64,000 bases of DNA, from contig CM069603.1 in the NCBI GenBank assembly GCA_035771175.1, positions 17,584,286-17,648,285 of the forward strand, written 5' to 3'. The DNA is from Paratinospora sagittata (lineage: Eukaryota; Streptophyta; Magnoliopsida; Ranunculales; Menispermaceae). Both the position numbers and the translations under genes were made by a program. Shown here in pieces: positions 5,045-51,771 of this stretch. Position 1 is the first letter of the stretch. The number at the start of each line of letters is the position of its first letter. A model generated the notes under the pieces. It was not told the DNA's origin and searched no databases. It saw only the letters and a program-made list of their open reading frames with translations.

Positions 5045-5048
5045 AAGT

Positions 5049-7647: not shown

Positions 7648-7689
7648 AAATAGGTGCATTGTCAAGCAAGCTGAGAAAATTGTTGCATT

Positions 7690-11079: not shown

Positions 11080-11212
11080 TGTGACGCCCCGAAAATTATT
11101 TTATCTAGCCCATTACCCAATTATATTTTGCCCAAACTCTATGTGTTTGCCTTGATATGTTTAGTGTTTGTTTAATGTTTGTTTAATGTTGTATATTTGA
11201 TGCTTGATAATG

Positions 11213-11222
11213 TATATAAATA
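11213..11222 (+). promoter_or_regulatory. Possible TATA box in LTR1
   Basis: TATATAAATA lies 133 bp inside the LTR and is kept in LTR2-4 (near 19164, 26981 and 34798). It fits a plant pol II TATA box by sequence only. A start site so close to the LTR edge would mean a very short U3 region. Confidence 0.3.
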
Positions 11223-11447
11223 TGTGCATTATAAATTGTATATGGGTCATGTTAAAGTAAAGTATAATGCATGTTTTATTATTTATGCATGGGCCCATTA
11301 AACCATGAATTGATATGGGTTAGGATTGATTGACTAAAAGGATAAATGAAAATGAAAATTTGGCGTATTAAATGGATTGGACATTTAAAATACATGGAAG
11401 CATGAGATTGGTTAAAATACATGTGGTTGGTATGGGTAGTATGAGAC

Positions 11448-11843
11448 CAACACATCTCAAGTTGATGCATGATAATGGACAAGTGTCCTATGCCCCATTT
11501 CTCTTCTCCAATACATGTCAAGTTGGTGCATGATAATGGACAAGTGTCCCATGCCCCATTTCTCTTCTCCAACACATGTCAAGTTGGTGCATGAGTCCAA
11601 CACATGTCAAGTTGGTGCATGAGACCAACATATGTCTAGTTGGTGCATGAGACCAACACATGTCAAGTTGGTGCATGAGAATGGACAAGTGTCTCATGCC
11701 CTATTTCTCTTCTCCAATACATGTCAAGTTGGTGCATAAAATTGGACAAGTGTCCCATGCCCCATTTCTCCTCTCCAACACATGTCAAGGTTGGTGCATG
11801 AGAGTGGACAAGTGTCCCATGCCCTACTTCTCTTCTCCATGGA
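11448..11843 (+). repeat. Tandem repeat inside LTR1
   Basis: A roughly 60-80 bp unit repeats imperfectly about six times. Its recognisable parts are CAAGTTGGTGCATGAGA, GGACAAGTGTCCCATGCCCC and TTTCTCTTCTCCAACACATG. LTR2, LTR3 and LTR4 have fewer units over about 280 bp (19397-19676, 27214-27493, 35031-35310). GGACAAGTGTCC within the unit is close to a palindrome. Short ORFs across this tract are by-products of the repeat. Confidence 0.75.
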
Positions 11844-14073
11844 AGTCCTAGAGGATGAGATGAGTGGAGAGAAAGGAAAAAAGAAGAGAAAGGAAAGAAG
11901 AAGAGAAAGAAAGAAGGAGTTGCTTTGAGGAAAGTCTCAGCAACATTTTCATCAAAGAGCTGGATCTTTGTACTATATGGTCAGATTGAGCTCAAACTTT
12001 GTCAGCAAGTTGGTAGATTATGTTTATTCATTCGGGTCGGTGGAGATCTTTATTGGAGTTTTCTTCTGAGCGATATAGCCTCCAAAACAAAGCTGGTCGG
12101 AATGTATGGATTTCTCGCACAGTTTAGATCAAACTAATAGATCTCCTAAATCTATCGTTGGATGCATATGATATTTGGTAATGTGGTTTACAACTAATAT
12201 TTCTGTATTAGGAACAAGGGAGATGTTTATGGGTTAAGTATTTTGTGTGATATAGTCACCTGAGTTCAAGTATGTGCAGCAGGAAAGGAGAAATTCTCTG
12301 ATTAGAGACTTGTTCATCAAAGGAGCTTATCTTTTCGGTCCACAGTTGGAGTGAGCTGATTTTTGGACAGAAGGTTTACATCTTAACATACTTCAATCTG
12401 TATGGTTTATTTTTTGATTAAATTTTTCTGTTGGCAGCTTGATACATCTGAACAGAATATTAAATGGAAAATTTGTAGGGTTGTTTGTATCAGACCTAAA
12501 TTTAGAATATGAACTTACACCTTTCCAAATAAGTTGCATATCAACTATATTGACCTAGTTGCCATTGTTGATGAACCCATGATGTAAAATCCGTGATATA
12601 CATGGCTGAGCATGGTGACCTCGTGTAAATAGGCAATATGGCCTAAGTATAAAAAATTTCATATTTTAGGGCTTTTGATGCTTTTGGCCTAGAATCATTG
12701 AATTGATGCAATTTATGTCTAATTAAGCATGATTTGGGTTGATTATGCTACTGATTTGGTGGTTGTGACCATATCATGGGTTAGGCCTACTTGTGATCAA
12801 GTGACCCAATTTGGGCATGTTTATACCTAAGGAATTGAAAATTTGTATTTTTGATTAATTGAATGGTTTATGAATGAGAACTATGCATTAGAGGCCTAAG
12901 TCATGAGATTTGAGTTGAATGATGGGATTAGATGGGATTTAGGCCTATTGTCAATATGTTGGCTGAATTAGGGTTGATGTGTAATGTCTATGTGATTAAG
13001 CATAGAAATTGATGTATGGTTGGATATTGATGAATGTTTCAGGACCTTGATTGGGTTAATTCAGTTTGGTGTCTGTGTGTGGTTAGATACTCTCACGAGG
13101 CTTGGTTGTGAGTACACTTCATTTATGATTATATCTTTTATGTCATCATATCACTTATATATATTGTATGTTGAAAGCATGAATGTGTCCTAATGTTTTG
13201 AATGATGCATTGATTTGGGAAAACCTTATGACTTTGGTTGGGCCCATCTATCTGGCTAATAGGGGGACTAAACCTTGTCATAGGAGGGTTTTAAGAAAGG
13301 AAATATTTGGGGATGAGAACGGTACGGTGAAATAGACGTGCACTAGTAAGCTTAATGCATGTGGAATGTGGATCCAAATTGATAAGCTTTTACTTGCATC
13401 GAACTTATTAGAAATGCTTGATATCTATATGTTATGATCTTTTAATCATGCTACACATTGACATGCATACATGATTGATATTTATTGATGAGTATTGATA
13501 GCATATTTGAATTCTATTCAGTGGGCACCGTTGGCTCACCCTCATTTTCCTCTTTCAGGTCCTTCTGTCCTGAATAAGGGCAAAGGAGTAGTCATATCTT
13601 GAGGGCCTTGCCGGCGAGAGAATCCAAGGCCTCGATGTGAGTTGAAAGGCATTTTGATTGAATTGTGTTTTAAATTAAAATGTATTATATTTTGGACTAT
13701 GTAATTTTAACACTTACCACATTGTAGTATGGGTGAGTTGGGACTTGTTAGATAGACCATGTGGGCATATGACGATTTGTTTGTACCCATAGTTTTGGAC
13801 TTTATGTATCCATCTTGATGGACTGTACGATTATGGTTTTAATTATGGTTCATTTTTATGGAGTATCTCTTGTCTTGGATGATTAATACGGTTGTTAGTT
13901 TTGTTTAGTACATTTTTATATTTTGTCGTTGTTTGGGATAAGGCTCGTAGGGTCTCAACCACCTCACAGGGGTTGAGGAGTGGTTGGAGATGCCTACGCT
14001 GGGTGTCCCGCCCCAGCATTCCGCAAGCCATTCCTAGCGGGGTTGGTGGTCCGAGGTGCGGGGTCGCCACAGT

Positions 14074-14085
14074 TGGTATCAGAGC
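14074..14085 (+). other. Primer-binding site, unit 1
   Basis: TGGTATCAGAGC, two bases after the LTR end, is the standard plant initiator-tRNA-Met primer site. Confidence 0.9.
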
Positions 14086-14305
14086 CCGATTTTACTAGGT
14101 TTGGTCTATGTATTGGACTTAGATGACTTTGACCTAGGAATTGGGTGAGAGATTTAGGTGATTAAAAAGCTTAAAGGAACTAACTTAAAAGGCTTACTAT
14201 CATATTTTATGTGTGTATTATATGATATGGGTAGTTATGAGGCTTTGTTAATGTTTTAAATTCTCTAATGTGTGTTGGTTGCTCGTATTTCTACTTCTCA
14301 GTGTC

Positions 14306-15220
14306 ATGAGGAGGAGCGGGAGATTGAGACAACCACACACAGGGCCATCCGATGATGACCTGATGGGGAGGATGGAAGAGATCATTCAGGCACAGGGCCG
14401 ATTGATGGCAGCCCAGACTGCACAGATACAAGCGTTGGTGCAGCAAGTCGAGGCTGTTGCTCGACAGTCTTCTCAGACAATACATCAGGAGGCAGACACT
14501 AGTGGGGCCGAGGCGGTCGGGGCTAGTGGAGCTGCAGGGGCAGCAGGACCTCAGATATTTGTACCTCAGCCTATGCCTACATCTGCTCCTATTTTTATGG
14601 AATACCCCACTGATCGGCGGATCAGACTGCTAGAGAAGTTCATGAAGCTGAAGCCTAAGGAATTCACTGGTGGGGTTGACTTGAAGAAGGCTGAAGATTG
14701 GCTGAAGAATGTCGAGAAGATCAGTCGCTCCTTAGAGCTTGATGAGGAGTCTCAGGTCCTATGTGTTGCTCACACACTGGAGAGTGATGCAGAGGACTGG
14801 TGGCTTTCAGTGTTGGATACACAGGGGGTAGTGAAGAGTTGGGACACCTTCAAACGATTGTTCTTACAGGCTTACGTTCCAGAGACTGAGAGGCAGGCTA
14901 TGCAACTCGAGTTTCTGAATCTCGTACAGGGCACCACGTCAGTCAGGGAGTACGAGCTCTCAGTTTATGCCGCTGGATTAGTTCAGACACCGGGTGACAA
15001 GATTATGAGGTTCTCTTTAAACCTAAGGCATGTGATCCGGCAGGCCTTGTCTGTGACGAAGATGACTGATTTTGCCACAGTGGTCCAGAGGGCCAAACAG
15101 TATGAGTTGGCTGAGCGGGTTGATGGTATGTCTACACGGGCAGCTCCAGGTGAACAAACTTCACAAGCAGAGTCTGGGGGACAGTTCCAGACACCATGGA
15201 AGAAGGGAAAATGGGGATAG
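14306..15220 (+). pseudogene. Gag, unit 1 (ends at premature stop)
   Basis: Gag starts best at ATG 14306 (MetArgArgSerGly...), 220 bp after the PBS; the upstream in-frame ATG at 14270 would only add a hydrophobic stretch not expected in gag. Residues about 20-55 look coiled-coil-like and Gln-rich. An Ala/Gly-rich linker follows, then the capsid core with PheThrGlyGly, AlaGluAspTrpLeu, AlaGluAspTrpTrp and ValArgGluTyrGlu blocks (Retrotrans_gag family). A TAG at 15218-15220 cuts the frame before the zinc knuckle. The downstream part is in another frame, so a frameshift also lies near 15270-15300. Both lesions are shared by all three units. Confidence 0.85.
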
Positions 15221-15221
15221 A

Positions 15222-15824
15222 AGAGAAAATTTTATGGAGGAGCACAGTCCGAGGGTGCTCAGAGTGGGGGCATCCCAGATTCAGACTGGTTTGATGGCCT
15301 CACCAGTGGTTTCCTCTCCTGTCCCGATTCCCATTCAGGCACCGAGTGCACCGAGACCCCCATTCCCACAGACTGCTGGTCGAGGCAGAGGTAGAGGCCG
15401 AGGAGGCTATGTGGCGACATCTCAAACTGGATCATCTGCGCCCAGGGCTCCGTTCTTATGTTATCAATGTGGGCAGGCTGGGCATAGGAAGTCAGAGTGT
15501 CCGAGTCTTCAGAGGGCTCCGAGATTTGTGCAGCAGTCCAGTGCCAGCGAGACAACGAAGGCAGCTACTGAGCCAGACCCGATAGCATCCATGACTTTGG
15601 TGGAAGGTACTCTTATTATTTGTGGTGCTTCTATGCATGTATTATTTGATGCTGGGTCTACGTTATCATTCATATCTGGACGTATGGTAGATAGTTTGCA
15701 TTTGACTCCCATTAGGGCGAGTACATGGTTAGACTTTTGAGTCGGGGAGAGAATCTACCCGAACATGATCTGTAGCAAGTGTGTGGTTCAGATTGGTAAT
15801 CTTGAGATGCTTGTTGACTTTTGA
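15222..15824 (+). pseudogene. Gag zinc knuckle and protease, unit 1
   Basis: In the frame used by the rest of pol, a Pro-rich stretch and a GlyArg repeat (near 15380-15405) lead to a Cys-Cys-His-Cys zinc knuckle at 15459-15500 (CysTyrGlnCysGlyGlnAlaGlyHis...Cys), which binds genomic RNA. The aspartic protease begins near 15591, with its active site PheAspAlaGlySerThrLeuSer near 15645. TGA stops at 15738-15740 and 15822-15824 interrupt the protease and the linker to RT. Each stop is one transition away from a sense codon. Confidence 0.85.
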
Positions 15825-17000
15825 GTCCTAGAGTTTTTAGAGTTTGATGCAATTCTAGGGATGGATTGGCTCGCGGCTTATCATGCAGTTGTTGACTATT
15901 TCGAGAAGAGAGTCATTTTCCAGATCCCCGGACACCCAGTGTTTACACTACAGGGTAGAGCTTCAGACCAGACAGTCACAAGAGGTAGATTTGTGATTGA
16001 TGGAGATAGGGAGATTTTGGCTGGATTAGTGCCTGATGAGGAAGAGACTAGTGAGGTGATACTTGAGGATATTGCCATTGTTAGGGACTTTCCAGATATG
16101 CTCCTTGCGGATCTTCCAGGATTACCATCGAAGCGAGAGATCGATTTCATTATTGAACTAGTCCCTGGCACGAAGCCTATCTCCATGGCACCATATAGAA
16201 TGGTGCCTGCCGAGTTGAGAGAGTCGCAGAAACAGCTCGAGGAGTTATTGGCTAAGGGCTTATTTGTCCGAGCGTGTCACCCTGGGGAGCTCCAGTTCTT
16301 TTTTGTGAAAAAGAAAGATGGGAGCTTGCGATTGTGCATCGACTATCGCCAATTGAACAGGGTGACCATCAAGAACAAGTATCCTCTCCCAAGGATTGAT
16401 GACTTGTTTGATCAATTGAGGGGAGCGAGGTATTTTTTGACGATTGATTTGCGCTTCGGGTATCATCAGCTGAGGATCAGGGAGGAGGATGTGCCTAAGA
16501 CAACATTTAGAACCCGCTATGGACATTATGAGTTCCTTGTGATGCCATTTGGTGTGACTAATGCACCGGCGATGTTCACGGACCTGATGCAGAGGGTCTT
16601 TAGGCAGTATCTGGATTAGTTTTTCATCGTCTTCATTGATGACATATTGGTGTATTTCAAGACTCGGGCTGAGCATGAGGAACACCTTAGAGTGACCTTG
16701 CAGACTCTGAGAGAGCATAGGCTATATGCAAAGTTGAGCAAGTGCGAGTTTTGGATCACCGAAGTGAAGTTCTTAGGTCATGTGGTGAGTTCTGAGGGGA
16801 TTTTAGTTGATCCGTCTAAGGTTGAAGCCATTATCAGTTGGGCTAGGCCTACCACAGTGACCGAGATCAGAAGCTTTCTTGGGTTAGCTGGTTACTATAG
16901 GAGATTCGTTCAGGGATTTTCCAAGATATCTACGCCTATGACTAGGCTCACCCAGAAAGATGTGTTCTTTGTATGGACTGAGGAATGTGAGAATGCCTTT
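15825..17000 (+). pseudogene. Reverse transcriptase, unit 1
   Basis: A LeuGlyMetAspTrpLeu linker at about 15855 is followed by RT with [14 protein letters not shown] (near 16337), [14 protein letters not shown] and the polymerase box PheIleAspAsp at 16632-16643. A TAG at 16617-16619 falls only 12 bp before that box, so translation ends just short of the catalytic site. The connection region continues with PheLeuGlyHisValVal and GlyTyrTyrArgArgPhe. Apart from the stop, the frame is open from 15825 to 17831. Confidence 0.9.
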
Positions 17001-17440
17001 TTAGAGCTGAAGAAAATATTGACATCTACGCCAGTGTTGATTTTGCCAGAGCCTGATCAAGAGTTGGTTATCTACACTGATGCCTCTCGTATCGGCTTGG
17101 GTTGCGTGTTGATGCAGAAGGATAGGGTCATTGCTTATGCATCGAGGCAGTTGAAGGTGCACGAAAAGAACTATCCTGTTCATGACTTAGAACTGGCCGC
17201 AGTAGTTTTTGCTTTGAAGATTTGGAGGCATTATCTCTATGGTGAGAGATTCACTTTGTATTATGACCATAAGAGCCTCAAGCACTTGTTCTCTCAGAAG
17301 GAATTGAACATGAGGCAGAGAAGGTGGTTAGAGCTCCTCAAAGACTATGATTTTACATTGGAATACCACCCAGGTAAAGCCATTGTAGTGGCTGATGCGT
17401 TAAGCAGGAAGCGGGTAGAGACAATTATGGTAGCACGCCA
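17001..17440 (+). pseudogene. RNase H, unit 1
   Basis: RNase H shows TyrThrAspAlaSer at 17072-17086 (first acidic residue), AspLeuGluLeuAlaAlaVal (catalytic Glu, near 17188) and AspHisLysSerLeu (near 17265), and it ends with AlaAspAlaLeuSerArgLys near 17390-17410. The frame has no internal stop, but no product is expected because upstream stops would end the polyprotein. Confidence 0.9.
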
Positions 17441-19019
17441 GATGTCTCATGAGTGGAGACTACTTGAGGTGGCTACGGTTATGAGTATATGTGTTACCCC
17501 TTCAAATCAGATTGTGATATTTGCTCAGATGATAGCTCAGCCTACACAGGTCCAGGAGGTGATTGACCAACAGAGACTTGACGTTGATTATGTGATGTAC
17601 AAGTCTTGGGCTGAGAGCGGTGATTTTACTGATTGGCACTTGTCATCTGATGGTGCCTTGAGATTTAGGGGACGTTTATGGGTTCCCGCAGATCCACGAC
17701 TCAGACAGAGTGTGCTCCAAGAAGCTCACAGATCTCATTATGCTATTCATCCTGGCGGAACCAAGATGTATCATAATATGAAAAGAATGTATTGGTGGCC
17801 CAACATGAAGAGAGAAATAGCTCAGTTCATTTAGAGGTGTGAGATCTGTCAAAGAGTCAAAGCTGAGCATCAGAGCCTTGGAGGACAGATGCAACCGCTT
17901 GCCATTCCTGAGTGGAAGTGAGAACATGTCACTATGAACTTTGTTGTGGGATTACCCAACACCCCGAGGAGACATAATGTTGTTTGGGTTATTATTGATC
18001 GCTTGACTAAGTCCGCTCACTTTCTACTAGTGAACACTAGGGATTCTATAGACAAGCTGAGCAGACTCTATATGCGGGAGATAGTCAGATTACATGGAGT
18101 GCCAGTTTCGATTGTGTCAGATAGGGATCCGAGGTTTACATCGGTATTCTGGCAGGGGTTGCAGAGGCAGCTCGGCACTAGACTAGATCTCCGTACCGCT
18201 TTTCACCCTCAGAAGGATGGCCAGTCAGAGAGGTTGATATCGATTTTGAAGGATATGCTTCGAGCTTGTGTCCTTGAGTCCAGTGATAACTGGGAGGAGT
18301 ACATACACTTGTGTGAGTTCGCGTACAACAACAACTATCAGTCCAGTATTGGCATGGCTCTTTTTGAGGCATTGTATGGTCGACCCTGTAGATCTCCAGT
18401 CTGTTGGACGAAGGTAGGGGATGTTGCAGTGATGGGACCAAAGTTTGTACATGAACACACAGAGAAGATTAAGAGGATCAAGCATAATATGAAGGTAGCC
18501 CAAGACAGGCAGAAGAGTTACGCTGATGCCAAGCGAAAGACCGTAGAGTTCGAGGTGGGTGACCAAGTTTTATTGAAGGTCTCACCTCACAAGGGCCAGA
18601 CTAGATTTAGGCTAAAAGGCAAGCACGCTCCGAGATTTATTGGGCTGTTCGAGGTTTTAGAACGAATTGGCCCCGTCGCTTACCGATTAGCCTTGCCACC
18701 TCAGTTAGCAACAGTCCACAATGTCTTTCATTTGTCAATGTTGAGAGTGTACAGGAGTGACTTTGATCACGTCTTGGACTGGAGGAACATTGAGCTGAGG
18801 CAGGATGGGACTTATGATGAGGAACCTATTCAGATACTTGATCGGAAGGTCCAGAGGTTGGGTAACCGCGAGATTTTGATGGTTAAGGTGAGATGTCAGT
18901 TCCATGGCGAGGAACAGGTTACTTGGGAGCGTGAGGACTACATGATGGAGCACTTTGCTGAGTTCATGGGCTTAGGTAATTTCTTAACCTTAAAACTTCG
19001 AGGACGAAGTTCATTCTAA
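17441..19019 (+). pseudogene. Integrase with chromodomain-like tail, unit 1
   Basis: The His-His-Cys-Cys zinc region lies at about 17735-17850 and is cut by a TAG at 17832-17834 between the His pair and the Cys pair. A TGA at 17919-17921 follows. The catalytic core keeps IleAspArgLeuThrLys (near 17996), SerAspArgAspProArgPhe (near 18117) and GlyGlnSerGluArgLeu (near 18220), giving Asp, Asp and Glu. The C-terminal stretch from about 18830 (IleLeuAspArgLysVal ... ValThrTrpGluArgGlu) has the form of the chromodomain-like tail of Tekay/Del elements, which is thought to steer integration into heterochromatin. The frame ends at TAA 19017-19019. Confidence 0.85.
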
Positions 19020-19030
19020 GGTGGGTGTGA
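19018..19030 (+). other. Polypurine tract, unit 1
   Basis: AAGGTGGGTGTGA directly before LTR2. It overlaps the last bases of the integrase stop codon. Copies lie at 26835-26847 and 34652-34664. Confidence 0.6.
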
Positions 19031-21888
19031 TGTGACGCCCCAAAAATTATTTTATCTAGCCTATTACCCAATTATATTTTGTTCAAACTCTATGTGTTTG
19101 CCTTGATATGTTTAGTGTTTGTTTAATGTTTGTTTAATGTTGTATATTTGATGCTTGATAATTTATATAAATATGTGCATTATAAATTGTATATGGGTCA
19201 TGTTAAATTAAAGTATAATGCATGTTTTATTATTTATGCATGGGCCTATTAAACCATGAATTGATATGGGTTAGGATTGATTGAATAACAGGATAAATGA
19301 GAATGAAAATTTGGTATATTAAATGGATTGGACATTTTAAATGCATGGAAGCATGACATTGGTTAAAATACATGTGGTTGGTATGGGTAGTATGAGACCA
19401 ACACATGTCAAGTTGATGCATGATAATGGACAAGTGTCCATGCCCCATTTCTCTTCTCCAACACATGTCAAGTTGGCGCATGAGACCAACACATGTTAAG
19501 TTGGTGCATGAGAATGGACAAGTGTCCCATGCCCCATTTCTCTTCTCCAATACAAGTCAAGTTGGTGCATAAAAATGGACAAGTGTCCAATGCCCCATTT
19601 CTCCTCTCCAACACATGTCAAGGTTGGTGCCTGAGAGTGGACAAGTGTCCCATGCCCTACTTATCTTCTCCAAAGAAGTCCTATAGGGTGAGATGAGTAG
19701 AGAGAAAGGAAAAAAGAAGAGAAAGAAAGAGGGAGATGCTTTGAAGAAAAGTCTCAGCAATGTCATCATCAAAGATCTGGATCTTGGTACTATATGGTCA
19801 GATTGAACTCAAACTTTTTCAGAAAATTCATAGCTTATGGTTATTCATTCTGGTCGGTGGAGATCTTGATTGGAGTTTTCTTCTGTGAGATATAACCTCC
19901 CAAACAAAGCTGGTCGGAAAGTCTGAATTTCTCGCGCAGTTTAGATCAAACTCATCGATCTCCTAAATCTACCGTTGGATGGATATGATATTAGGTAATA
20001 TGGTTTACAACTAATCTTTCTATATTATGAACGGGGGAGATGTTTATGGGTCAAGTATGTTGTGTGATATAGTCACCTGAGTTCACGGATTTGCAGCGGG
20101 AAAGGAGAAATTGTCGGATTAGAGACTTGTTCATCGAAGGAGCGTTTCTATTCGTTCCACCGTTGGATTGAGCTGAGTTTTGGACAGAAGGTTTACATCT
20201 TAACATACTTCAATCTGTACGGTTCATTTTTTGATTAAATATTTCTGTTGGCAGCTTGATACATCTGAACAGAATATTAAATGGAAAATTTGTAGGGTTG
20301 TTTGTATCAGACCTAAATTTAGAATATGAACTTACACCTTTCCAAATAAGTTGCATATCAACTATATTGACCTAGTTGCCATTGTTGATGAACCCATGAT
20401 GTAAAATCCGTGATATACATGGCTGAGCATGGTGACCTCGTGTAAATAGGCAATATGGCCTAAGTATGAAAAATTTCATATTTTAGGGCTTTTGATGCTT
20501 TTGGCCTAGAATCATTGAATTGATGCAATTTATGTCTAATTAAGCATGATTTGGGTTGATTATGCTACTGATTTGGTGGTTGTGACCATATCATGGGTTA
20601 GGCCTACTTGTGATCAAGTGACCCAATTTGGGCATGTTTATACCTAAGGAATTGAAAATTTGTATTTTTGATTAATTGAATGGTTTATGAATGAGAACTA
20701 TGCATTAGAGGCCTAAGTCATGAGATTTGAGTTGAATGATGGGATTAGATGGGATTTAGGCCTATTGTCAATATGTTGGCTGAATTAGGGTTGATGTGTA
20801 ATGTCTATGTGATTAAGCATAGAAATTGATGTATGGTTGGATATTGATGAATGTTTCAGGACCTTGATTGGGTTAATTCAGTTTGGTGTCTGTGTGTGGT
20901 TAGATACTCTCACGAGGCTTGGTTGTGAGTACACTTCATTTATGATTATATCTTTTATGTCATCATATCACTTATATATATTGTATGTTGAAAGCATGAA
21001 TGTGTCCTAATGTTTTGAATGATGCATTGATTTGGGAAAACCTTATGACTTTGGTTGGGCCCATCTATCTGGCTAATAGGGGGACTAAACCTTGTCATAG
21101 GAGGGTTTTAAGAAAGGAAATATTTGGGGATGAGAACGGTACGGTGAAATAGACGTGCACTAGTAAGCTTAATGCATGTGGAATGTGGATCCAAATTGAT
21201 AAGCTTTTACTTGCATCGAACTTATTAGAAATGCTTGATATCTATATGTTATGATCTTTTAATCATGCTACACATTGACATGCATACATGATTGATATTT
21301 ATTGATGAGTATTGATAGCATATTTGAATTCTATTCAGTGGGCACCGTTGGCTCACCCTCATTTTCCTCTTTCAGGTCCTTCTGTCCTGAATAAGGGCAA
21401 AGGAGTAGTCATATCTTGAGGGCCTTGCCGGCGAGAGAATCCAAGGCCTCGATGTGAGTTGAAAGGCATTTTGATTGAATTGTGTTTTAAATTAAAATGT
21501 ATTATATTTTGGACTATGTAATTTTAACACTTACCACATTGTAGTATGGGTGAGTTGGGACTTGTTAGATAGACCATGTGGGCATATGACGATTTGTTTG
21601 TACCCATAGTTTTGGACTTTATGTATCCATCTTGATGGACTGTAGGATTATGGTTTTAATTATGGTTCATTTTTATGGAGTATCTCTTGTCTTGGATGAT
21701 TAATACGGTTGTTAGTTTTGTTTAGTACATTTTTATATTTTGTCGTTGTTTGGGATAAGGCTCGTAGGGTCTCAACCACCTCACAGGGGTTGAGGAGTGG
21801 TTGGAGATGCCTACGCTGGGTGTCCCGCCCCAGCATTCCGCAAGCCATTCCTAGCGGGGTTGGTGGTCCGAGGTGCGGGGTCGCCACA
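19031..21888 (+). repeat. LTR2 (inner, chimeric)
   Basis: 2858 bp. Up to 20241 it matches LTR4 at sites where LTR1 differs; from 20252 on it matches LTR1 at sites where LTR4 differs. A C at 20016 is shared only with LTR3, while LTR1 and LTR4 have A. It acts as the 3' LTR of unit 1 and the 5' LTR of unit 2 at once, with no target duplication on either side. Confidence 0.9.
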
Positions 21889-21890
21889 GT

Positions 21891-21902
21891 TGGTATCAGA
21901 GC
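21891..21902 (+). other. Primer-binding site, unit 2
   Basis: Same TGGTATCAGAGC site as unit 1, two bases after LTR2. Confidence 0.9.
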
Positions 21903-22122
21903 CCGATTTTACTAGGTTTGGTCTATGTATTGGACTTAGATGACTTTGACCTAGGAATTGGGTGAGAGATTTAGGTGATTAAAAAGCTTAAAGGAACTAA
22001 CTTAAAAGGCTTACTATCATATTTTATGTGTGTATTATATGATATGGGTAGTTATGAGGCTTTGTTAATGTTTTAAATTCTCTAATGTGTGTTGGTTGCT
22101 CGTATTTCTACTTCTCAGTGTC

Positions 22123-23037: not shown

Positions 23038-23038
23038 A

Positions 23039-25257: not shown

Positions 25258-26836
25258 GATGTCTCATGAGTGGAGACTACTTGAGGTGGCTACGGTTATG
25301 AGTATATGTGTTACCCCTTCAAATCAGATTGTGATATTTGCTCAGATGATAGCTCAGCCTACACAGGTCCAGGAGGTGATTGACCAACAGAGACTTGACG
25401 TTGATTATGTGATGTACAAGTCTTGGGCTGAGAGCGGTGATTTTACTGATTGGCACTTGTCATCTGATGGTGCCTTGAGATTTAGGGGACGTTTATGGGT
25501 TCCCGCAGATCCACGACTCAGACAGAGTGTGCTCCAAGAAGCTCACAGATCTCATTATGCTATTCATCCTGGCGGAACCAAGATGTATCATAATATGAAA
25601 AGAATGTATTGGTGGCCCAACATGAAGAGAGAAATAGCTCAGTTCATTTAGAGGTGTGAGATCTGTCAAAGAGTCAAAGCTGAGCATCAGAGCCTTGGAG
25701 GACAGATGCAACCGCTTGCCATTCCTGAGTGGAAGTGAGAACATGTCACTATGAACTTTGTTGTGGGATTACCCAACACCCCGAGGAGACATAATGTTGT
25801 TTGGGTTATTATTGATCGCTTGACTAAGTCCGCTCACTTTCTACTAGTGAACACTAGGGATTCTATAGACAAGCTGAGCAGACTCTATATGCGGGAGATA
25901 GTCAGATTACATGGAGTGCCAGTTTCGATTGTGTCAGATAGGGATCCGAGGTTTACATCGGTATTCTGGCAGGGGTTGCAGAGGCAGCTCGGCACTAGAC
26001 TAGATCTCCGTACCGCTTTTCACCCTCAGAAGGATGGCCAGTCAGAGAGGTTGATATCGATTTTGAAGGATATGCTTCGAGCTTGTGTCCTTGAGTCCAG
26101 TGATAACTGGGAGGAGTACATACACTTGTGTGAGTTCGCGTACAACAACAACTATCAGTCCAGTATTGGCATGGCTCTTTTTGAGGCATTGTATGGTCGA
26201 CCCTGTAGATCTCCAGTCTGTTGGACGAAGGTAGGGGATGTTGCAGTGATGGGACCAAAGTTTGTACATGAACACACAGAGAAGATTAAGAGGATCAAGC
26301 ATAATATGAAGGTAGCCCAAGATAGGCAGAAGAGTTACGCTGATGCCAAGCGAAAGACCGTAGAGTTCGAGGTGGGTGACCAAGTTTTATTGAAGGTCTC
26401 ACCTCACAAGGGCCAGACTAGATTTAGGCTAAAAGGCAAGCACGCTCCGAGATTTATTGGGCTGTTCGAGGTTTTAGAACGAATTGGCCCCGTCGCTTAC
26501 CGATTAGCCTTGCCACCTCAGTTAGCAACAGTCCACAATGTCTTTCATTTGTCAATGTTGAGAGTGTACAGGAGTGACTTTGATCACGTCTTGGACTGGA
26601 GGAACATTGAGCTGAGGCAGGATGGGACTTATGATGAGGAACCTATTCAGATACTTGATCGGAAGGTCCAGAGGTTGGGTAACCGCGAGATTTTGATGGT
26701 TAAGGTGAGATGTCAGTTCCATGGCGAGGAACAGGTTACTTGGGAGCGTGAGGACTACATGATGGAGCACTTTGCTGAGTTCATGGGCTTAGGTAATTTC
26801 TTAACCTTAAAACTTCGAGGACGAAGTTCATTCTAA
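25258..26836 (+). pseudogene. Integrase with chromodomain-like tail, unit 2
   Basis: Copy of unit 1 with stops at 25649-25651 and 25736-25738. It carries one silent change (T at 26323 where units 1 and 3 have C, in an Asp codon), which makes this unit distinguishable. Confidence 0.85.
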
Positions 26837-26847
26837 GGTGGGTGTGA

Positions 26848-29705
26848 TGTGACGCCCCAAAAATTATTTTATCTAGCCTATTACCCAATTATATTTTGTT
26901 CAAACTCTATGTGTTTGCCTTGATATGTTTAGTGTTTGTTTAATGTTTGTTTAATGTTGTATATTTGATGCTTGATAATTTATATAAATATGTGCATTAT
27001 AAATTGTATATGGGTCATGTTAAATTAAAGTATAATGCATGTTTTATTATTTATGCATGGGCCTATTAAACCATGAATTGATATGGGTTAGGATTGATTG
27101 AATAACAGGATAAATGAGAATGAAAATTTGGTATATTAAATGGATTTGACATTTTAAATGCATGGAAGCATGACATTGGTTAAAATACATGTGGTTGGTA
27201 TGGGTAGTATGAGACCAACACATGTCAAGTTGATGCATGATAATGGACAAGTGTCCATGCCCCATTTCTCTTCTCCAACACATGTCAAGTTGGCGCATGA
27301 GACCAACACATGTTAAGTTGGTGCATGAGAATGGACAAGTGTCCCATGCCCCATTTCTCTTCTCCAATACAAGTCAAGTTGGTGCATAAAAATGGACAAG
27401 TGTCCAATGCCCCATTTCTCCTCTCCAACACATGTCAAGGTTGGTGCCTGAGAGTGGACAAGTGTCCCATGCCCTACTTATCTTCTCCAAAGAAGTCCTA
27501 TAGGGTGAGATGAGTAGAGAGAAAGGAAAAAAGAAGAGAAAGAAAGAGGGAGATGCTTTGAAGAAAAGTCTCAGCAATGTCATCATCAAAGATCTGGATC
27601 TTGGTACTATATGGTCAGATTGAACTCAAACTTTTTCAGAAAATTCATAGCTTATGGTTATTCATTCTGGTCGGTGGAGATCTTGATTGGAGTTTTCTTC
27701 TGTGAGATATAACCTCCCAAACAAAGCTGGTCGGAAAGTCTGAATTTCTCGCGCAGTTTAGATCAAACTCATCGATCTCCTAAATCTACCGTTGGATGGA
27801 TATGATATTAGGTAATATGGTTTACAACTAATCTTTCTATATTATGAACGGGGGAGATGTTTATGGGTCAAGTATGTTGTGTGATATAGTCACCTGAGTT
27901 CACGGATTTGCAGCGGGAAAGGAGAAATTGTCGGATTAGAGACTTGTTCATCGAAGGAGCGTTTCTATTCGTTCCACCGTTGGATTGAGCTGAGTTTTGG
28001 ACAGAAGGTTTACATCTTAACATACTTCAATCTGTACGGTTCATTTTTTGATTAAATATTTCTGTTGGCAGCTTGATACATCTGAACAGAATATTAAATG
28101 GAAAATTTGTAGGGTTGTTTGTATCAGACCTAAATTTAGAATATGAACTTACACCTTTCCAAATAAGTTGCATATCAACTATATTGACCTAGTTGCCATT
28201 GTTGATGAACCCATGATGTAAAATCCGTGATATACATGGCTGAGCATGGTGACCTCGTGTAAATAGGCAATATGGCCTAAGTATGAAAAATTTCATATTT
28301 TAGGGCTTTTGATGCTTTTGGCCTAGAATCATTGAATTGATGCAATTTATGTCTAATTAAGCATGATTTGGGTTGATTATGCTACTGATTTGGTGGTTGT
28401 GACCATATCATGGGTTAGGCCTACTTGTGATCAAGTGACCCAATTTGGGCATGTTTATACCTAAGGAATTGAAAATTTGTATTTTTGATTAATTGAATGG
28501 TTTATGAATGAGAACTATGCATTAGAGGCCTAAGTCATGAGATTTGAGTTGAATGATGGGATTAGATGGGATTTAGGCCTATTGTCAATATGTTGGCTGA
28601 ATTAGGGTTGATGTGTAATGTCTATGTGATTAAGCATAGAAATTGATGTATGGTTGGATATTGATGAATGTTTCAGGACCTTGATTGGGTTAATTCAGTT
28701 TGGTGTCTGTGTGTGGTTAGATACTCTCACGAGGCTTGGTTGTGAGTACACTTCATTTATGATTATATCTTTTATGTCATCATATCACTTATATATATTG
28801 TATGTTGAAAGCATGAATGTGTCCTAATGTTTTGAATGATGCATTGATTTGGGAAAACCTTATGACTTTGGTTGGGCCCATCTATCTGGCTAATAGGGGG
28901 ACTAAACCTTGTCATAGGAGGGTTTTAAGAAAGGAAATATTTGGGGATGAGAACGGTACGGTGAAATAGACGTGCACTAGTAAGCTTAATGCATGTGGAA
29001 TGTGGATCCAAATTGATAAGCTTTTACTTGCATCGAACTTATTAGAAATGCTTGATATCTATATGTTATGATCTTTTAATCATGCTACACATTGACATGC
29101 ATACATGATTGATATTTATTGATGAGTATTGATAGCATATTTGAATTCTATTCAGTGGGCACCGTTGGCTCACCCTCATTTTCCTCTTTCAGGTCCTTCT
29201 GTCCTGAATAAGGGCAAAGGAGTAGTCATATCTTGAGGGCCTTGCCGGCGAGAGAATCCAAGGCCTCGATGTGAGTTGAAAGGCATTTTGATTGAATTGT
29301 GTTTTAAATTAAAATGTATTATATTTTGGACTATGTAATTTTAACACTTACCACATTGTAGTATGGGTGAGTTGGGACTTGTTAGATAGACCATGTGGGC
29401 ATATGACGATTTGTTTGTACCCATAGTTTTGGACTTTATGTATCCATCTTGATGGACTGTAGGATTATGGTTTTAATTATGGTTCATTTTTATGGAGTAT
29501 CTCTTGTCTTGGATGATTAATACGGTTGTTAGTTTTGTTTAGTACATTTTTATATTTTGTCGTTGTTTGGGATAAGGCTCGTAGGGTCTCAACCACCTCA
29601 CAGGGGTTGAGGAGTGGTTGGAGATGCCTACGCTGGGTGTCCCGCCCCAGCATTCCGCAAGCCATTCCTAGCGGGGTTGGTGGTCCGAGGTGCGGGGTCG
29701 CCACA
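26848..29705 (+). repeat. LTR3 (inner, chimeric)
   Basis: 2858 bp, the same chimera as LTR2 with the switch between 28058 and 28069. It differs from LTR2 by a T at 27147 (G in LTR2 and LTR4). Sharing the exact junction with LTR2 shows that the two inner LTRs descend from one recombination event. Confidence 0.9.
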
Positions 29706-29707
29706 GT

Positions 29708-29719
29708 TGGTATCAGAGC
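29708..29719 (+). other. Primer-binding site, unit 3
   Basis: Same TGGTATCAGAGC site as units 1 and 2. Confidence 0.9.
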
Positions 29720-29939
29720 CCGATTTTACTAGGTTTGGTCTATGTATTGGACTTAGATGACTTTGACCTAGGAATTGGGTGAGAGATTTAGGTGATTAAA
29801 AAGCTTAAAGGAACTAACTTAAAAGGCTTACTATCATATTTTATGTGTGTATTATATGATATGGGTAGTTATGAGGCTTTGTTAATGTTTTAAATTCTCT
29901 AATGTGTGTTGGTTGCTCGTATTTCTACTTCTCAGTGTC

Positions 29940-30854
29940 ATGAGGAGGAGCGGGAGATTGAGACAACCACACACAGGGCCATCCGATGATGACCTGATGG
30001 GGAGGATGGAAGAGATCATTCAGGCACAGGGCCGATTGATGGCAGCCCAGACTGCACAGATACAAGCGTTGGTGCAGCAAGTCGAGGCTGTTGCTCGACA
30101 GTCTTCTCAGACAATACATCAGGAGGCAGACATTAGTGGGGCCGAGGCGGTCGGGGCTAGTGGAGCTGCAGGGGCAGCAGGACCTCAGATATTTGTACCT
30201 CAGCCTATGCCTACATCTGCTCCTATTTTTATGGAATACCCCACTGATCGGCGGATCAGACTGCTAGAGAAGTTCATGAAGCTGAAGCCTAAGGAATTCA
30301 CTGGTGGGGTTGACTTGAAGAAGGCTGAAGATTGGCTGAAGAATGTCGAGAAGATCAGTCGCTCCTTAGAGCTTGATGAGGAGTCTCAGGTCCTATGTGT
30401 TGCTCACACACTGGAGAGTGATGCAGAGGACTGGTGGCTTTCAGTGTTGGATACACAGGGGGTAGTGAAGAGTTGGGACACCTTCAAACGATTGTTCTTA
30501 CAGGCTTACGTTCCAGAGACTGAGAGGCAGGCTATGCAACTCGAGTTTCTGAATCTCGTACAGGGCACCACGTCAGTCAGGGAGTACGAGCTCTCAGTTT
30601 ATGCCGCTGGATTAGTTCAGACACCGGGTGACAAGATTATGAGGTTCTCTTTAAACCTAAGGCATGTGATCCGGCAGGCCTTGTCTGTGACGAAGATGAC
30701 TGATTTTGCCACAGTGGTCCAGAGGGCCAAACAGTATGAGTTGGCTGAGCGGGTTGATGGTATGTCTACACGGGCAGCTCCAGGTGAACAAACTTCACAA
30801 GCAGAGTCTGGGGGACAGTTCCAGACACCATGGAAGAAGGGAAAATGGGGATAG
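29940..30854 (+). pseudogene. Gag, unit 3
   Basis: Copy of unit 1 gag with one amino acid change, Thr to Ile (C to T at 30133), in the Ala/Gly-rich linker before the capsid core. It ends at the same premature TAG (30852-30854). Confidence 0.85.
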
Positions 30855-30855
30855 A

Positions 30856-31458
30856 AGAGAAAATTTTATGGAGGAGCACAGTCCGAGGGTGCTCAGAGTG
30901 GGGGCATCCCAGATTCAGACTGGTTTGATGGCCTCACCAGTGGTTTCCTCTCCTGTCCCGATTCCCATTCAGGCACCGAGTGCACCGAGACCCCCATTCC
31001 CACAGACTGCTGGTCGAGGCAGAGGTAGAGGCCGAGGAGGCTATGTGGCGACATCTCAAACTGGATCATCTGCGCCCAGGGCTCCGTTCTTATGTTATCA
31101 ATGTGGGCAGGCTGGGCATAGGAAGTCAGAGTGTCCGAGTCTTCAGAGGGCTCCGAGATTTGTGCAGCAGTCCAGTGCCAGCGAGACAACGAAGGCAGCT
31201 ACTGAGCCAGACCCGATAGCATCCATGACTTTGGTGGAAGGTACTCTTATTATTTGTGGTGCTTCTATGCATGTATTATTTGATGCTGGGTCTACGTTAT
31301 CATTCATATCTGGACGTATGGTAGATAGTTTGCATTTGACTCCCATTAGGGCGAGTACATGGTTAGACTTTTGAGTCGGGGAGAGAATCTACCCGAACAT
31401 GATCTGTAGCAAGTGTGTGGTTCAGATTGGTAATCTTGAGATGCTTGTTGACTTTTGA
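30856..31458 (+). pseudogene. Gag zinc knuckle and protease, unit 3
   Basis: As in unit 1: zinc knuckle at 31093-31134, protease active site near 31279, stops at 31372-31374 and 31456-31458. Confidence 0.85.
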
Positions 31459-32634
31459 GTCCTAGAGTTTTTAGAGTTTGATGCAATTCTAGGGATGGAT
31501 TGGCTCGCGGCTTATCATGCAGTTGTTGACTATTTCGAGAAGAGAGTCATTTTCCAGATCCCCGGACACCCAGTGTTTACACTACAGGGTAGAGCTTCAG
31601 ACCAGACAGTCACAAGAGGTAGATTTGTGATTGATGGAGATAGGGAGATTTTGGCTGGATTAGTGCCTGATGAGGAAGAGACTAGTGAGGTGATACTTGA
31701 GGATATTGCCATTGTTAGGGACTTTCCAGATATGCTCCTTGCGGATCTTCCAGGATTACCATCGAAGCGAGAGATCGATTTCATTATTGAACTAGTCCCT
31801 GGCACGAAGCCTATCTCCATGGCACCATATAGAATGGTGCCTGCCGAGTTGAGAGAGTCGCAGAAACAGCTCGAGGAGTTATTGGCTAAGGGCTTATTTG
31901 TCCGAGCGTGTCACCCTGGGGAGCTCCAGTTCTTTTTTGTGAAAAAGAAAGATGGGAGCTTGCGATTGTGCATCGACTATCGCCAATTGAACAGGGTGAC
32001 CATCAAGAACAAGTATCCTCTCCCAAGGATTGATGACTTGTTTGATCAATTGAGGGGAGCGAGGTATTTTTTGACGATTGATTTGCGCTTCGGGTATCAT
32101 CAGCTGAGGATCAGGGAGGAGGATGTGCCTAAGACAACATTTAGAACCCGCTATGGACATTATGAGTTCCTTGTGATGCCATTTGGTGTGACTAATGCAC
32201 CGGCGATGTTCACGGACCTGATGCAGAGGGTCTTTAGGCAGTATCTGGATTAGTTTTTCATCGTCTTCATTGATGACATATTGGTGTATTTCAAGACTCG
32301 GGCTGAGCATGAGGAACACCTTAGAGTGACCTTGCAGACTCTGAGAGAGCATAGGCTATATGCAAAGTTGAGCAAGTGCGAGTTTTGGATCACCGAAGTG
32401 AAGTTCTTAGGTCATGTGGTGAGTTCTGAGGGGATTTTAGTTGATCCGTCTAAGGTTGAAGCCATTATCAGTTGGGCTAGGCCTACCACAGTGACCGAGA
32501 TCAGAAGCTTTCTTGGGTTAGCTGGTTACTATAGGAGATTCGTTCAGGGATTTTCCAAGATATCTACGCCTATGACTAGGCTCACCCAGAAAGATGTGTT
32601 CTTTGTATGGACTGAGGAATGTGAGAATGCCTTT
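31459..32634 (+). pseudogene. Reverse transcriptase, unit 3
   Basis: Same as unit 1, with the TAG at 32251-32253 just ahead of the PheIleAspAsp box at 32266-32277. Confidence 0.9.
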
Positions 32635-33074
32635 TTAGAGCTGAAGAAAATATTGACATCTACGCCAGTGTTGATTTTGCCAGAGCCTGATCAAGAGTTG
32701 GTTATCTACACTGATGCCTCTCGTATCGGCTTGGGTTGCGTGTTGATGCAGAAGGATAGGGTCATTGCTTATGCATCGAGGCAGTTGAAGGTGCACGAAA
32801 AGAACTATCCTGTTCATGACTTAGAACTGGCCGCAGTAGTTTTTGCTTTGAAGATTTGGAGGCATTATCTCTATGGTGAGAGATTCACTTTGTATTATGA
32901 CCATAAGAGCCTCAAGCACTTGTTCTCTCAGAAGGAATTGAACATGAGGCAGAGAAGGTGGTTAGAGCTCCTCAAAGACTATGATTTTACATTGGAATAC
33001 CACCCAGGTAAAGCCATTGTAGTGGCTGATGCGTTAAGCAGGAAGCGGGTAGAGACAATTATGGTAGCACGCCA
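32635..33074 (+). pseudogene. RNase H, unit 3
   Basis: Copy of unit 1 RNase H with no internal stop and the acidic positions kept. Confidence 0.9.
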
Positions 33075-34653
33075 GATGTCTCATGAGTGGAGACTACTTG
33101 AGGTGGCTACGGTTATGAGTATATGTGTTACCCCTTCAAATCAGATTGTGATATTTGCTCAGATGATAGCTCAGCCTACACAGGTCCAGGAGGTGATTGA
33201 CCAACAGAGACTTGACGTTGATTATGTGATGTACAAGTCTTGGGCTGAGAGCGGTGATTTTACTGATTGGCACTTGTCATCTGATGGTGCCTTGAGATTT
33301 AGGGGACGTTTATGGGTTCCCGCAGATCCACGACTCAGACAGAGTGTGCTCCAAGAAGCTCACAGATCTCATTATGCTATTCATCCTGGCGGAACCAAGA
33401 TGTATCATAATATGAAAAGAATGTATTGGTGGCCCAACATGAAGAGAGAAATAGCTCAGTTCATTTAGAGGTGTGAGATCTGTCAAAGAGTCAAAGCTGA
33501 GCATCAGAGCCTTGGAGGACAGATGCAACCGCTTGCCATTCCTGAGTGGAAGTGAGAACATGTCACTATGAACTTTGTTGTGGGATTACCCAACACCCCG
33601 AGGAGACATAATGTTGTTTGGGTTATTATTGATCGCTTGACTAAGTCCGCTCACTTTCTACTAGTGAACACTAGGGATTCTATAGACAAGCTGAGCAGAC
33701 TCTATATGCGGGAGATAGTCAGATTACATGGAGTGCCAGTTTCGATTGTGTCAGATAGGGATCCGAGGTTTACATCGGTATTCTGGCAGGGGTTGCAGAG
33801 GCAGCTCGGCACTAGACTAGATCTCCGTACCGCTTTTCACCCTCAGAAGGATGGCCAGTCAGAGAGGTTGATATCGATTTTGAAGGATATGCTTCGAGCT
33901 TGTGTCCTTGAGTCCAGTGATAACTGGGAGGAGTACATACACTTGTGTGAGTTCGCGTACAACAACAACTATCAGTCCAGTATTGGCATGGCTCTTTTTG
34001 AGGCATTGTATGGTCGACCCTGTAGATCTCCAGTCTGTTGGACGAAGGTAGGGGATGTTGCAGTGATGGGACCAAAGTTTGTACATGAACACACAGAGAA
34101 GATTAAGAGGATCAAGCATAATATGAAGGTAGCCCAAGACAGGCAGAAGAGTTACGCTGATGCCAAGCGAAAGACCGTAGAGTTCGAGGTGGGTGACCAA
34201 GTTTTATTGAAGGTCTCACCTCACAAGGGCCAGACTAGATTTAGGCTAAAAGGCAAGCACGCTCCGAGATTTATTGGGCTGTTCGAGGTTTTAGAACGAA
34301 TTGGCCCCGTCGCTTACCGATTAGCCTTGCCACCTCAGTTAGCAACAGTCCACAATGTCTTTCATTTGTCAATGTTGAGAGTGTACAGGAGTGACTTTGA
34401 TCACGTCTTGGACTGGAGGAACATTGAGCTGAGGCAGGATGGGACTTATGATGAGGAACCTATTCAGATACTTGATCGGAAGGTCCAGAGGTTGGGTAAC
34501 CGCGAGATTTTGATGGTTAAGGTGAGATGTCAGTTCCATGGCGAGGAACAGGTTACTTGGGAGCGTGAGGACTACATGATGGAGCACTTTGCTGAGTTCA
34601 TGGGCTTAGGTAATTTCTTAACCTTAAAACTTCGAGGACGAAGTTCATTCTAA
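33075..34653 (+). pseudogene. Integrase with chromodomain-like tail, unit 3
   Basis: Copy of unit 1 with stops at 33466-33468 and 33553-33555 and the same C-terminal tail ending at 34653. At the marker site it has C (34140), as in unit 1. Confidence 0.85.
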
Positions 34654-34664
34654 GGTGGGTGTGA

Positions 34665-37594
34665 TGTGACGCCCCAAAAATTATTTTATCTAGCCTATTA
34701 CCCAATTATATTTTGTTCAAACTCTATGTGTTTGCCTTGATATGTTTAGTGTTTGTTTAATGTTTGTTTAATGTTGTATATTTGATGCTTGATAATTTAT
34801 ATAAATATGTGCATTATAAATTGTATATGGGTCATGTTAAATTAAAGTATAATGCATGTTTTATTATTTATGCATGGGCCTATTAAACCATGAATTGATA
34901 TGGGTTAGGATTGATTGAATAACAGGATAAATGAGAATGAAAATTTGGTATATTAAATGGATTGGACATTTTAAATGCATGGAAGCATGACATTGGTTAA
35001 AATACATGTGGTTGGTATGGGTAGTATGAGACCAACACATGTCAAGTTGATGCATGATAATGGACAAGTGTCCATGCCCCATTTCTCTTCTCCAACACAT
35101 GTCAAGTTGGCGCATGAGACCAACACATGTTAAGTTGGTGCATGAGAATGGACAAGTGTCCCATGCCCCATTTCTCTTCTCCAATACAAGTCAAGTTGGT
35201 GCATAAAAATGGACAAGTGTCCAATGCCCCATTTCTCCTCTCCAACACATGTCAAGGTTGGTGCCTGAGAGTGGACAAGTGTCCCATGCCCTACTTATCT
35301 TCTCCAAAGAAGTCCTATAGGGTGAGATGAGTAGAGAGAAAGGAAAAAAGAAGAGAAAGAAAGAGGGAGATGCTTTGAAGAAAAGTCTCAGCAATGTCAT
35401 CATCAAAGATCTGGATCTTGGTACTATATGGTCAGATTGAACTCAAACTTTTTCAGAAAATTCATAGCTTATGGTTATTCATTCTGGTCGGTGGAGATCT
35501 TGATTGGAGTTTTCTTCTGTGAGATATAACCTCCCAAACAAAGCTGGTCGGAAAGTCTGAATTTCTCGCGCAGTTTAGATCAAACTCATCGATCTCCTAA
35601 ATCTACCGTTGGATGGATATGATATTAGGTAATATGGTTTACAACTAATATTTCTATATTATGAACGGGGGAGATGTTTATGGGTCAAGTATGTTGTGTG
35701 ATATAGTCACCTGAGTTCACGGATTTGCAGCGGGAAAGGAGAAATTGTCGGATTAGAGACTTGTTCATCGAAGGAGCGTTTCTATTCGTTCCACCGTTGG
35801 ATTGAGCTGAGTTTTGGACAGAAGGTTTACATCTTAACATACTTCAATCTGTACGGTTCATTTTTTGATTAAATATTTCTGTTGGTAGCTTGATACATCT
35901 GAACAGAATATTAAATGGAAAATTTGTAGGGTTGTTTGTATTAGATCTAAATTTAGAATATGAACTTACACCTTTCCAAATAGGTTGCATGTCAACTATG
36001 TTGACCTAGTTTCCATTGTTGATGAACCCATCATGTAAAATCAGTGATATACATGGCTGAACATGGTGACCTAGTGTAAATAGGCAATATGGCCTAAGTA
36101 TGAAAAATTTCATATTTTAGGGCTTTTGATGCTTTTGGCCTAGAATCATTGAATTGATGCAATTTATGTGTAATTAAGCATGATTTGGGTTGATTATGCT
36201 ACTGATTTGGTAGTTGTGACCATATCATTGGTTAGGCCTACTTGTGATCAAGTGACCCAATTTGGGCATGTTTATACCTAAGGAATTGAAAATTTGTATT
36301 TTTGATTAATTGAATGGTTTATGAATGAGAACTATGCATTAGAGGCCTAAGTCATGTGATTTGAGTTGAATGATGGGATTAGATGGGATTTAGGCCTATT
36401 GTCTATATGTGGGCTGAATTAGGGTTGATGTGTAATGTCTATGTGATTGAGCATAGAAATTGATGTATGGTTATATATTGATGAATGTTTCAGGACCTTG
36501 ATTGGGTTGATTCGGTTTGGTGTCCGTGTGAGGTTAGATACTCTCGCGAGGCTTAGTTGTAAGTAGACTTTATTTATGATTATATCTTTTATGTCATCAT
36601 ATCACTTATATATATTGTATGTTGAAAGCATGAATGTGTCCTAATATTTTGAATGATGCATTGATATGAGAAAACCTTATGACTTTGGTTGGGCCCATCT
36701 ATCTGCCTAATTGGGGGACTTAACCTTGTCATAGGAGGGTTTTAAAAAAGGAAATATTTGGGGATGAGAACGGTACGGTGAAATAGACGGTGAAATAGAC
36801 GCGCACTAGTAACCCCAAATCAACATGATTGGGAATGAGAACGGTACGATTAAATAGACGTGCACTAGTAACCCCAATGCATGTGGAATGTAGATCCAAA
36901 TTGATAAGCTTTTACTTGCATCGAACTTATTATAAATGCTTGATATCTATAGGTTATGAGCTTTTAATCATGCTACACATTGATATGCATACATGATATT
37001 TATTGATGAGTAGTGATAGCATATTTGAATTCTATTCAGTGGGCACCGTTGGCTCACCCTCATTTTCCTATTTCAGGTCCTTCTGCCCTGAATAAGGGCA
37101 AATGAGTAGTCATATCTTGAGGGCTTTGCCGGCGAGAGAATCCAAGGCCTCGATGTGAGTTGAGAGGCATTTTGATTGAACTGTGTTTTAAATTATGACG
37201 TATTATATTTTGGACTATGTAATTTTAACACTTACCACATTGTAGTATGGGTGAGTTGGGACTTGTTAGATAGACCATGTGGGCATATGACGATTTGTTT
37301 GTACCCATAGTTTTGGACTTTATGTGTATGTCCATCTTGATGGAATGTAGGGAATATGGTTTTAATTATGGTTCATTTTTATGGAGTATCTCTTGTCTTG
37401 GATGATTAATACGGTTGGTAGTTTTGTTTAGTACATTTTTATATTATGTCGTTGTTTGGGATAAGGCTCGTAGGGTCTCAACCACCTCACGGGGGTTGAG
37501 GAGTGGTTGGAGATGCCTACCCCGGGCGTCCTGCCCCGGCATTTCACACGCCATTCCTAGCGGGGTTGGTGGTCTGGGGTACGGGGTTGCCACA
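34665..37594 (+). repeat. LTR4 (right end of the array)
   Basis: 2930 bp. Its first 1.2 kb match LTR2 and LTR3 almost perfectly. After 35886 it diverges from all other LTRs (for example TATTAGATC near 35938 where the others have TATCAGACC). It also has an extra local duplication at 36768-36890. It represents the 3' LTR of the founder element. Confidence 0.9.
36768..36890 (+). repeat. Local duplication inside LTR4
   Basis: The segment GAACGGTACGGTGAAATAGACG...CACTAGTAA occurs about twice here, with an extra short GGTGAAATAGAC repeat, but once in LTR1-3 (near 13317, 21134, 28951). It accounts for much of the length difference between LTR4 and LTR2/3. Confidence 0.7.
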
Positions 37595-37599
37595 ACCCT
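37595..37599. repeat. Right target-site duplication of the gypsy array
   Basis: ACCCT directly after LTR4; the partner on the left is GCCCT (11075-11079). Confidence 0.65.
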
Positions 37600-51758: not shown

Positions 51759-51771
51759 ATCTCCCCAACTT
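51759..51771 (-). other. Polypurine tract of the 9.7 kb gypsy element
   Basis: ATCTCCCCAACTT on the + strand is AAGTTGGGGAGAT on the - strand, identical to the tract at 2108-2120. Confidence 0.8.

Follow-up and report, generated by a model that had tools for sequence, protein, structure and literature searches.

The 64,000-nucleotide stretch of Paratinospora sagittata DNA analysed here (the window) contains a tandem array of three retrotransposon units in which neighbouring units share LTRs. This array belongs to a known type and the history of its formation is unusually readable. Indeed, the element was old before it multiplied, and the LTR markers therefore suffice to give the polarity of the exchange, its switch point and, through a single site, the order in which the steps took place. 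We propose, with a probability of about 0.83, that one old insertion underwent an out-of-register exchange between its 3' and 5' LTRs and that a second exchange then produced three units. A long-dead element thus appears to have been multiplied in place, and fairly recently.

Anatomy of the array and decay of its element

Self-comparison of the window bore out the LTR-I-LTR-I-LTR-I-LTR architecture (I, internal region) that had been described from the letters only. All copies have one orientation and an LTR lies at both ends of the array (11080-37594), which is composed of four direct LTR copies of about 2.9 kb each, set apart by three internals of 4959 bp. Since LTRs alternate with internals in the same direction, it is a shared-LTR tandem. 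Its features are the following:

11075..11079, no strand: left flank GCCCT, probable target-site duplication (four of five bases match 37595-37599)
11080..14071, + strand, 2992 bp: LTR1, the original 5' LTR (self-comparison, LTR alignment)
12425..12434, + strand: 10-bp identical tract with the LTR4-to-LTR1 switch; counterparts at 20242-20251, 28059-28068 and 35876-35885 (LTR alignment)
14072..19030, + strand, 4959 bp: I1, decayed gag-pol (Pfam matches in separate open pieces)
19031..21888, + strand, 2858 bp: LTR2, a hybrid, left part (to 20241) from LTR4 and right part (from 20252) from LTR1 (LTR alignment)
21889..26847, + strand, 4959 bp: I2, with a private C to T at 26323 (comparison of internals)
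26848..29705, + strand, 2858 bp: LTR3, the same hybrid as LTR2, with a private G to T at 27147 (LTR alignment)
29706..34664, + strand, 4959 bp: I3, with a private C to T at 30133 (comparison of internals)
34665..37594, + strand, 2930 bp: LTR4, the original 3' LTR (LTR alignment)
37595..37599, no strand: right flank ACCCT, probable target-site duplication (four of five bases match 11075-11079)

The four LTRs all start with TGTGAC and end with GCCACA. The three internals have their first 20 bases (GTTGGTATCAGAGC...) and their last 30 bases in common, and we take GTTGGTATCAGAGC to resemble a tRNA-Met primer-binding site. Pairwise comparison shows 1, 1 and 2 differences over 4959 sites (99.96-99.98% identity). 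The exact 7817-bp period claimed by the sequence-only reading holds for the start-to-start spacings LTR2-LTR3 and LTR3-LTR4 but not for LTR1-LTR2 (7951), because LTR1 exceeds the inner LTRs by 134 bp; LTR4 exceeds them by 72 bp. The near-identical periodic stretch runs from 12425 in LTR1 to 35885 in LTR4, i.e. three 7817-bp periods plus the 10-bp switch tract; beyond its ends, in the left part of LTR1 and in the right part of LTR4, the sequences diverge and have indels. Across the window, Tandem Repeats Finder returned 30 rows, those within the array falling inside LTRs, and Rfam gave no match at the gathering score.

The outer flanks agree at four of five bases, an agreement (at least four of five) expected by chance in 1.9% of cases; they are therefore probably a decayed target duplication, short of proof. 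As to the earlier claim of a duplication at the outer ends only, the outer pair is imperfect, and the inner LTRs adjoin the internals directly. The same reading had deduced recombination from this anatomy, which taken alone is equally compatible with the insertion of a ready-made tandem.

Pfam matches in the open pieces of I1 comprise gag, zinc knuckle, aspartic protease, RT, RNase H, integrase zinc-binding and Tf2-1-like SH3 domains. Their order (gag, protease, RT, RNase H, then integrase) is that of Ty3 and assigns the element to Ty3/gypsy. The integrase zinc-binding and SH3 domains score above their curated cut-offs; the integrase core (PF00665) is a weak match of 22.9 bits, under its curated cut-off of 32.6. 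Among solved structures, Ty3 Gag-Pol is the one that best matches the RT-RNase H piece. A protein search scored the 8000 candidates with the most words in common, of which 7996 passed; among the matches listed (best 120 of 7996), relatives are 42-62% identical, and those with an organism given are from flowering plants (Tanacetum, Sesamum, Prunus, Vitis, Cucumis, Gossypium and others). The integrase C-terminal piece of the array has no Pfam Chromo match; it aligns with 341-386 of one relative (P0019), where Pfam Chromo is found, and retains VKV and TWE. The element is decayed and of Ty3 type; judged from this alignment, it is probably a chromovirus, and a Tekay/Del lineage label would be our guess.

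Its reading frame is broken into five open pieces, the first in a different frame from the other four and the later ones separated by stops. The long open pieces start and end at equivalent positions in every unit, and 255 stop codons (three forward frames) are common to all of them, unit 2 having one extra. Because these frame breaks and stops are shared, the units descend from one copy that was damaged beforehand.

Inner LTRs as mosaics of the outer LTRs

The four LTRs are not equivalent: the outer pair is the most divergent and the inner pair is near-identical. LTR2 and LTR3 agree at 2857 of 2858 positions, LTR1 and LTR2 are 96.9% identical and LTR2 and LTR4 97.4%, and the lowest of the six pairwise identities is that of LTR1 and LTR4 (94.4%; 160 of 2853 sites differ, plus indels; K2P 0.058, about 0.076 left of the switch and 0.045 right of it). 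We used as diagnostic sites the 160 ungapped columns where LTR1 and LTR4 differ. LTR2 sides with LTR4 at 88 of these and with LTR1 at 72, and the two groups are not interspersed: LTR2 matches LTR4 through column 1345 and LTR1 from column 1356, with two exceptions. To the left of the switch, LTR2 and LTR4 disagree at 1 of 1211 sites, as against 87 of 1210 for LTR2 and LTR1; to the right, LTR1 is the closer one (2 of 1647 sites, against 72 of 1643 for LTR4). The indel runs show the same arrangement, those between LTR1 and LTR2 lying left of the switch (4/4, columns 407-848) and those between LTR4 and LTR2 right of it (4/4, columns 2251-2824). The composition expected from an unequal LTR-LTR exchange within one insertion (left part of the 3' LTR, right part of the 5' LTR, one switch) consequently accommodates 158 of the 160 diagnostic sites and 8/8 indel runs. 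The reversed polarity, LTR1 left and LTR4 right, leaves 72 misfits, and the best of 20,000 label shuffles still has 53. These mosaic inner LTRs support the unequal recombination suggested by the sequence-only reading and add to it a polarity and a switch point.

The two misfit sites, columns 1572 and 2825 (window 12651 and 13828), are both private to LTR1 and must be later LTR1 changes or conversion tracts. Column 1120 reads A-C-C-A across LTR1-4, its C being present in both hybrids and in neither outer LTR; a hybrid therefore probably existed, and changed, before being copied, an order given by this single site.

The switch falls in LTR alignment columns 1346-1355, a 10-bp identical tract whose neighbours are identical tracts of 15 and 55. 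The change points estimated separately for LTR1 against LTR2 (1346-1376) and for LTR4 against LTR2 (1308-1412) overlap, which is required by one exchange but not by independent decay at the two edges of the array. Identical tracts between LTR1 and LTR4 reach a length of 127 columns, and those of 10 or less hold about 15% of the identical columns, so that the position of the switch is unremarkable in itself. Around it, LTR1 and LTR4 are 92.5-96% identical (windows of 50-500 bp per side). A short tract in such surroundings is not an ideal substrate for classical homologous exchange, and this level of identity makes copying mechanisms besides classical crossover conceivable.

Proposed origin and rival explanations

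In the history that we propose, the insertion of a single Ty3-type element, probably a chromovirus, would have given LTR1-I-LTR4 bounded by a 5-bp target duplication. During a long residence, its LTRs would have drifted to a K2P of 0.058 and its reading frame would have been broken. The 3' LTR of one chromatid may then have misaligned with the 5' LTR of its partner (sister or homologue), and a single-point exchange (columns 1346-1355) would have yielded LTR1-I-hybrid-I-LTR4, the hybrid being LTR4 on the left and LTR1 on the right. A second misaligned exchange, between units by then near-identical, would have duplicated an internal together with the hybrid LTR, giving three units. Chromosomal unequal crossover, or break-induced copying of like geometry, would account for the exchange. 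The predicted reciprocal product is a solo LTR composed of LTR1-left and LTR4-right with the identical switch.

With substitution rates of 7e-9 and 1.3e-8 per site per year, the LTR1-LTR4 K2P of 0.058 would correspond, as a rough estimate, to about 4.2 or 2.2 million years. To the time after duplication we attribute six changes (two in the right part of LTR1, one common to the hybrids and one each in LTR3, I2 and I3), some of which could be sequencing errors. Over 23,451 sites they would place the duplication roughly 37 or 20 thousand years ago (Poisson range over both rates, about 7 to 80 thousand years).

Since the LTRs had already diverged and the exchange was resolved within a 10-bp tract, the array may have been built otherwise than by classical meiotic unequal crossover, whether through break-induced copying or replication-based template switching that tolerates mismatches, or through an amplified one-LTR circle that reintegrated, and its unit number may still be changing; we regard this broader reading as rather unlikely. 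Taken separately, the circle is improbable. When LTR-LTR recombination excises a circle, the resulting chimeric LTR has the identical polarity, and chimeric LTRs with the downstream LTR first and the upstream second were built for the breakpoint analysis of yeast Ty circles (PMC4751563, in the text available). Such a circle, perhaps amplified as a multimer, would recombine into an intact allele and bring in the extra units in one step, which accounts for the same switch in both hybrids. This route nevertheless demands excision, amplification and a return to the same site, and no observation requires a circle; we keep it among the candidates because its sequence outcome is that of unequal exchange. 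Slightly less probable still is an assembler's expansion of one element or of two units, to which near-identical units 7.8 kb long lend themselves. The false join would have to cross from LTR4 to LTR1 in the 10-bp tract, with 92.5% identity between them in the 200 bp on each side, and we judge this the less likely because assemblers use long near-identical overlaps. The private bases in LTR3, I2 and I3 and the hybrid-only base also argue against expansion, though they could be consensus errors.

The insertion of a ready-made tandem, whether template switching produced it (PMC1950507) or a multimeric transcript was its source (raised in the accessible portion of PMC11899658), would agree with the probable single target duplication surrounding the whole array. 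It predicts outer LTRs that were identical at birth and are as old as the rest, whereas they differ at 160 of 2853 sites and the internals at 1-2 of 4959, and the units have in common the decay of a single old copy. This origin is thus very improbable; in its template-switching form, for which outer LTRs should be highly similar, it was rejected, as they are the most divergent pair (94.4%). The classical model for shared-LTR complexes, the fusion of two or more neighbouring independent insertions by recombination of their proximal LTRs (PMC1950507), is the least probable of all. It predicts a hybrid with an LTR1-like left and an LTR4-like right part, independently diverged internals and no common target duplication; we rejected it because the hybrid has the opposite polarity (72 misfits for the one predicted) and the internals are near-identical. 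An old tandem with later homogenisation of its interior was rejected as well: its edges are expected at unrelated LTR columns and were found consistent with one point.

Relation to known shared-LTR systems

The closest counterparts are the tandem LTR-retrotransposons of rice, Arabidopsis, almond and cotton described by Morales-Diaz et al. 2025 (PMC11899658), who report them as common in plants. In the sections of that paper available to us, the rice reference has 28 clear tandems and the use of a rice pangenome leads to 266 candidates; the elements are mostly of gypsy type, with the Tekay lineage enriched in rice. As in the present array, internals alternate with shared LTRs and the target duplication lies outside (probably so here). 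In the same sections, the choice between complex insertion and recombination is left undecided; unlike the loci shown there, our array distinguishes the mechanism through its diverged outer and mosaic inner LTRs. For this one plant shared-LTR tandem, the mode of origin (inserted as such or formed by later recombination) can be read. The mosaic test (are inner LTRs composed of the 3'-left and 5'-right parts of the outer pair?) is transferable to tandems with diverged outer LTRs, and its application to them would yield the proportion arising each way.

The template-switching complexes known from Triticeae, rice and maize (Sabot and Schulman 2007, PMC1950507, who also describe recombinant complexes) likewise have a shared inner LTR and are bounded as a whole by direct repeats (probable here, at four of five bases). 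Similar outer LTRs together with flanking direct repeats are diagnostic there for template switching; the outer LTRs of the template-switching complexes are highly similar, whereas in our array no LTR pair is more divergent than the outer one, and the inner LTRs are chimeras of that pair. A literature search on chimeric, recombinant or hybrid LTRs, which covered few subscription papers, matched PMC4751563, PMC9862056 and PMC9694575 in the portions available, and we claim no priority.

The HERV-K(HML-2) proviruses at 7p22.1 and 6q14.1 are also tandems sharing LTRs. According to the portion of PMC11807958 at hand, they have three LTRs and two internals and are polymorphic with single-provirus forms; they differ from our array in being a human endogenous retrovirus with two units, and formerly tandem loci with recombinational deletion are also described. 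The arrays of Wukong (PMC4528315) and Cassandra (PMC7215508) have several units with shared LTRs and are ascribed, in the available text, to recombination or unequal crossing over; these elements are short and without gag-pol, whereas the unit here is 7.8 kb long with a decayed gag-pol. The earlier statement that three-unit cases are uncommon is in line with the two worked loci of PMC11899658, both of two units. It fits less well with Wukong, admittedly a miniature element, for which the available text of PMC4528315 lists, among 89 intact copies, eight with three LTRs, five with four and two with six and seven.

Minisatellite in the LTRs of the tandem array

A 61/28-bp minisatellite lies within each LTR of the three-unit, shared-LTR array, and is more extensive in LTR1, the left outer repeat. 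The alignment of LTR1 with LTR2, the first inner repeat, contains 136 gap columns, most of which belong to two minisatellite gaps (62 and 56 columns).

11447-11839, minisatellite in LTR1
19458-19673, in LTR2
27275-27490, in LTR3
35092-35307, in LTR4

A single relative and its surrounding repeats

A lone, non-tandem relative occupies 49327-58962 (-). Between its LTR-like repeats, which are 94% identical to each other, lies a decayed minus-strand Ty3 internal region that shares 67% identity with that of the array across ~3.5 kb.

49327-51758 and 56531-58962, LTR-like repeats
45281-46769 with 61172-62661, direct repeats, 90% identity
41753-42472 with 59251-59893, direct repeats with a 29/58-bp minisatellite, 80% identity

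The 90% pair flanks this element, one copy on each side. The direct repeats in 41753-46769 and 59251-62661 perhaps represent a larger host element or a duplication. A foldback region is present at 59894-60599: the stretch 59894-60386 is 92% identical to itself read in reverse complement, and additional inverted arms (95%) reach 60599.

Inverted copies flanking the array, and a gag fragment

Inverted copies (~81% identity) were found on each side of the array, at 5041-7648 and 42631-45214.

5041-6512 with 43755-45214, inverted pair, ~81% identity
7050-7648 with 42631-43243, inverted pair, ~81% identity
4239-4790 (-), open stretch of 184 residues, Pfam Retrotrans_gag match

This open stretch is a piece of another retrotransposon.
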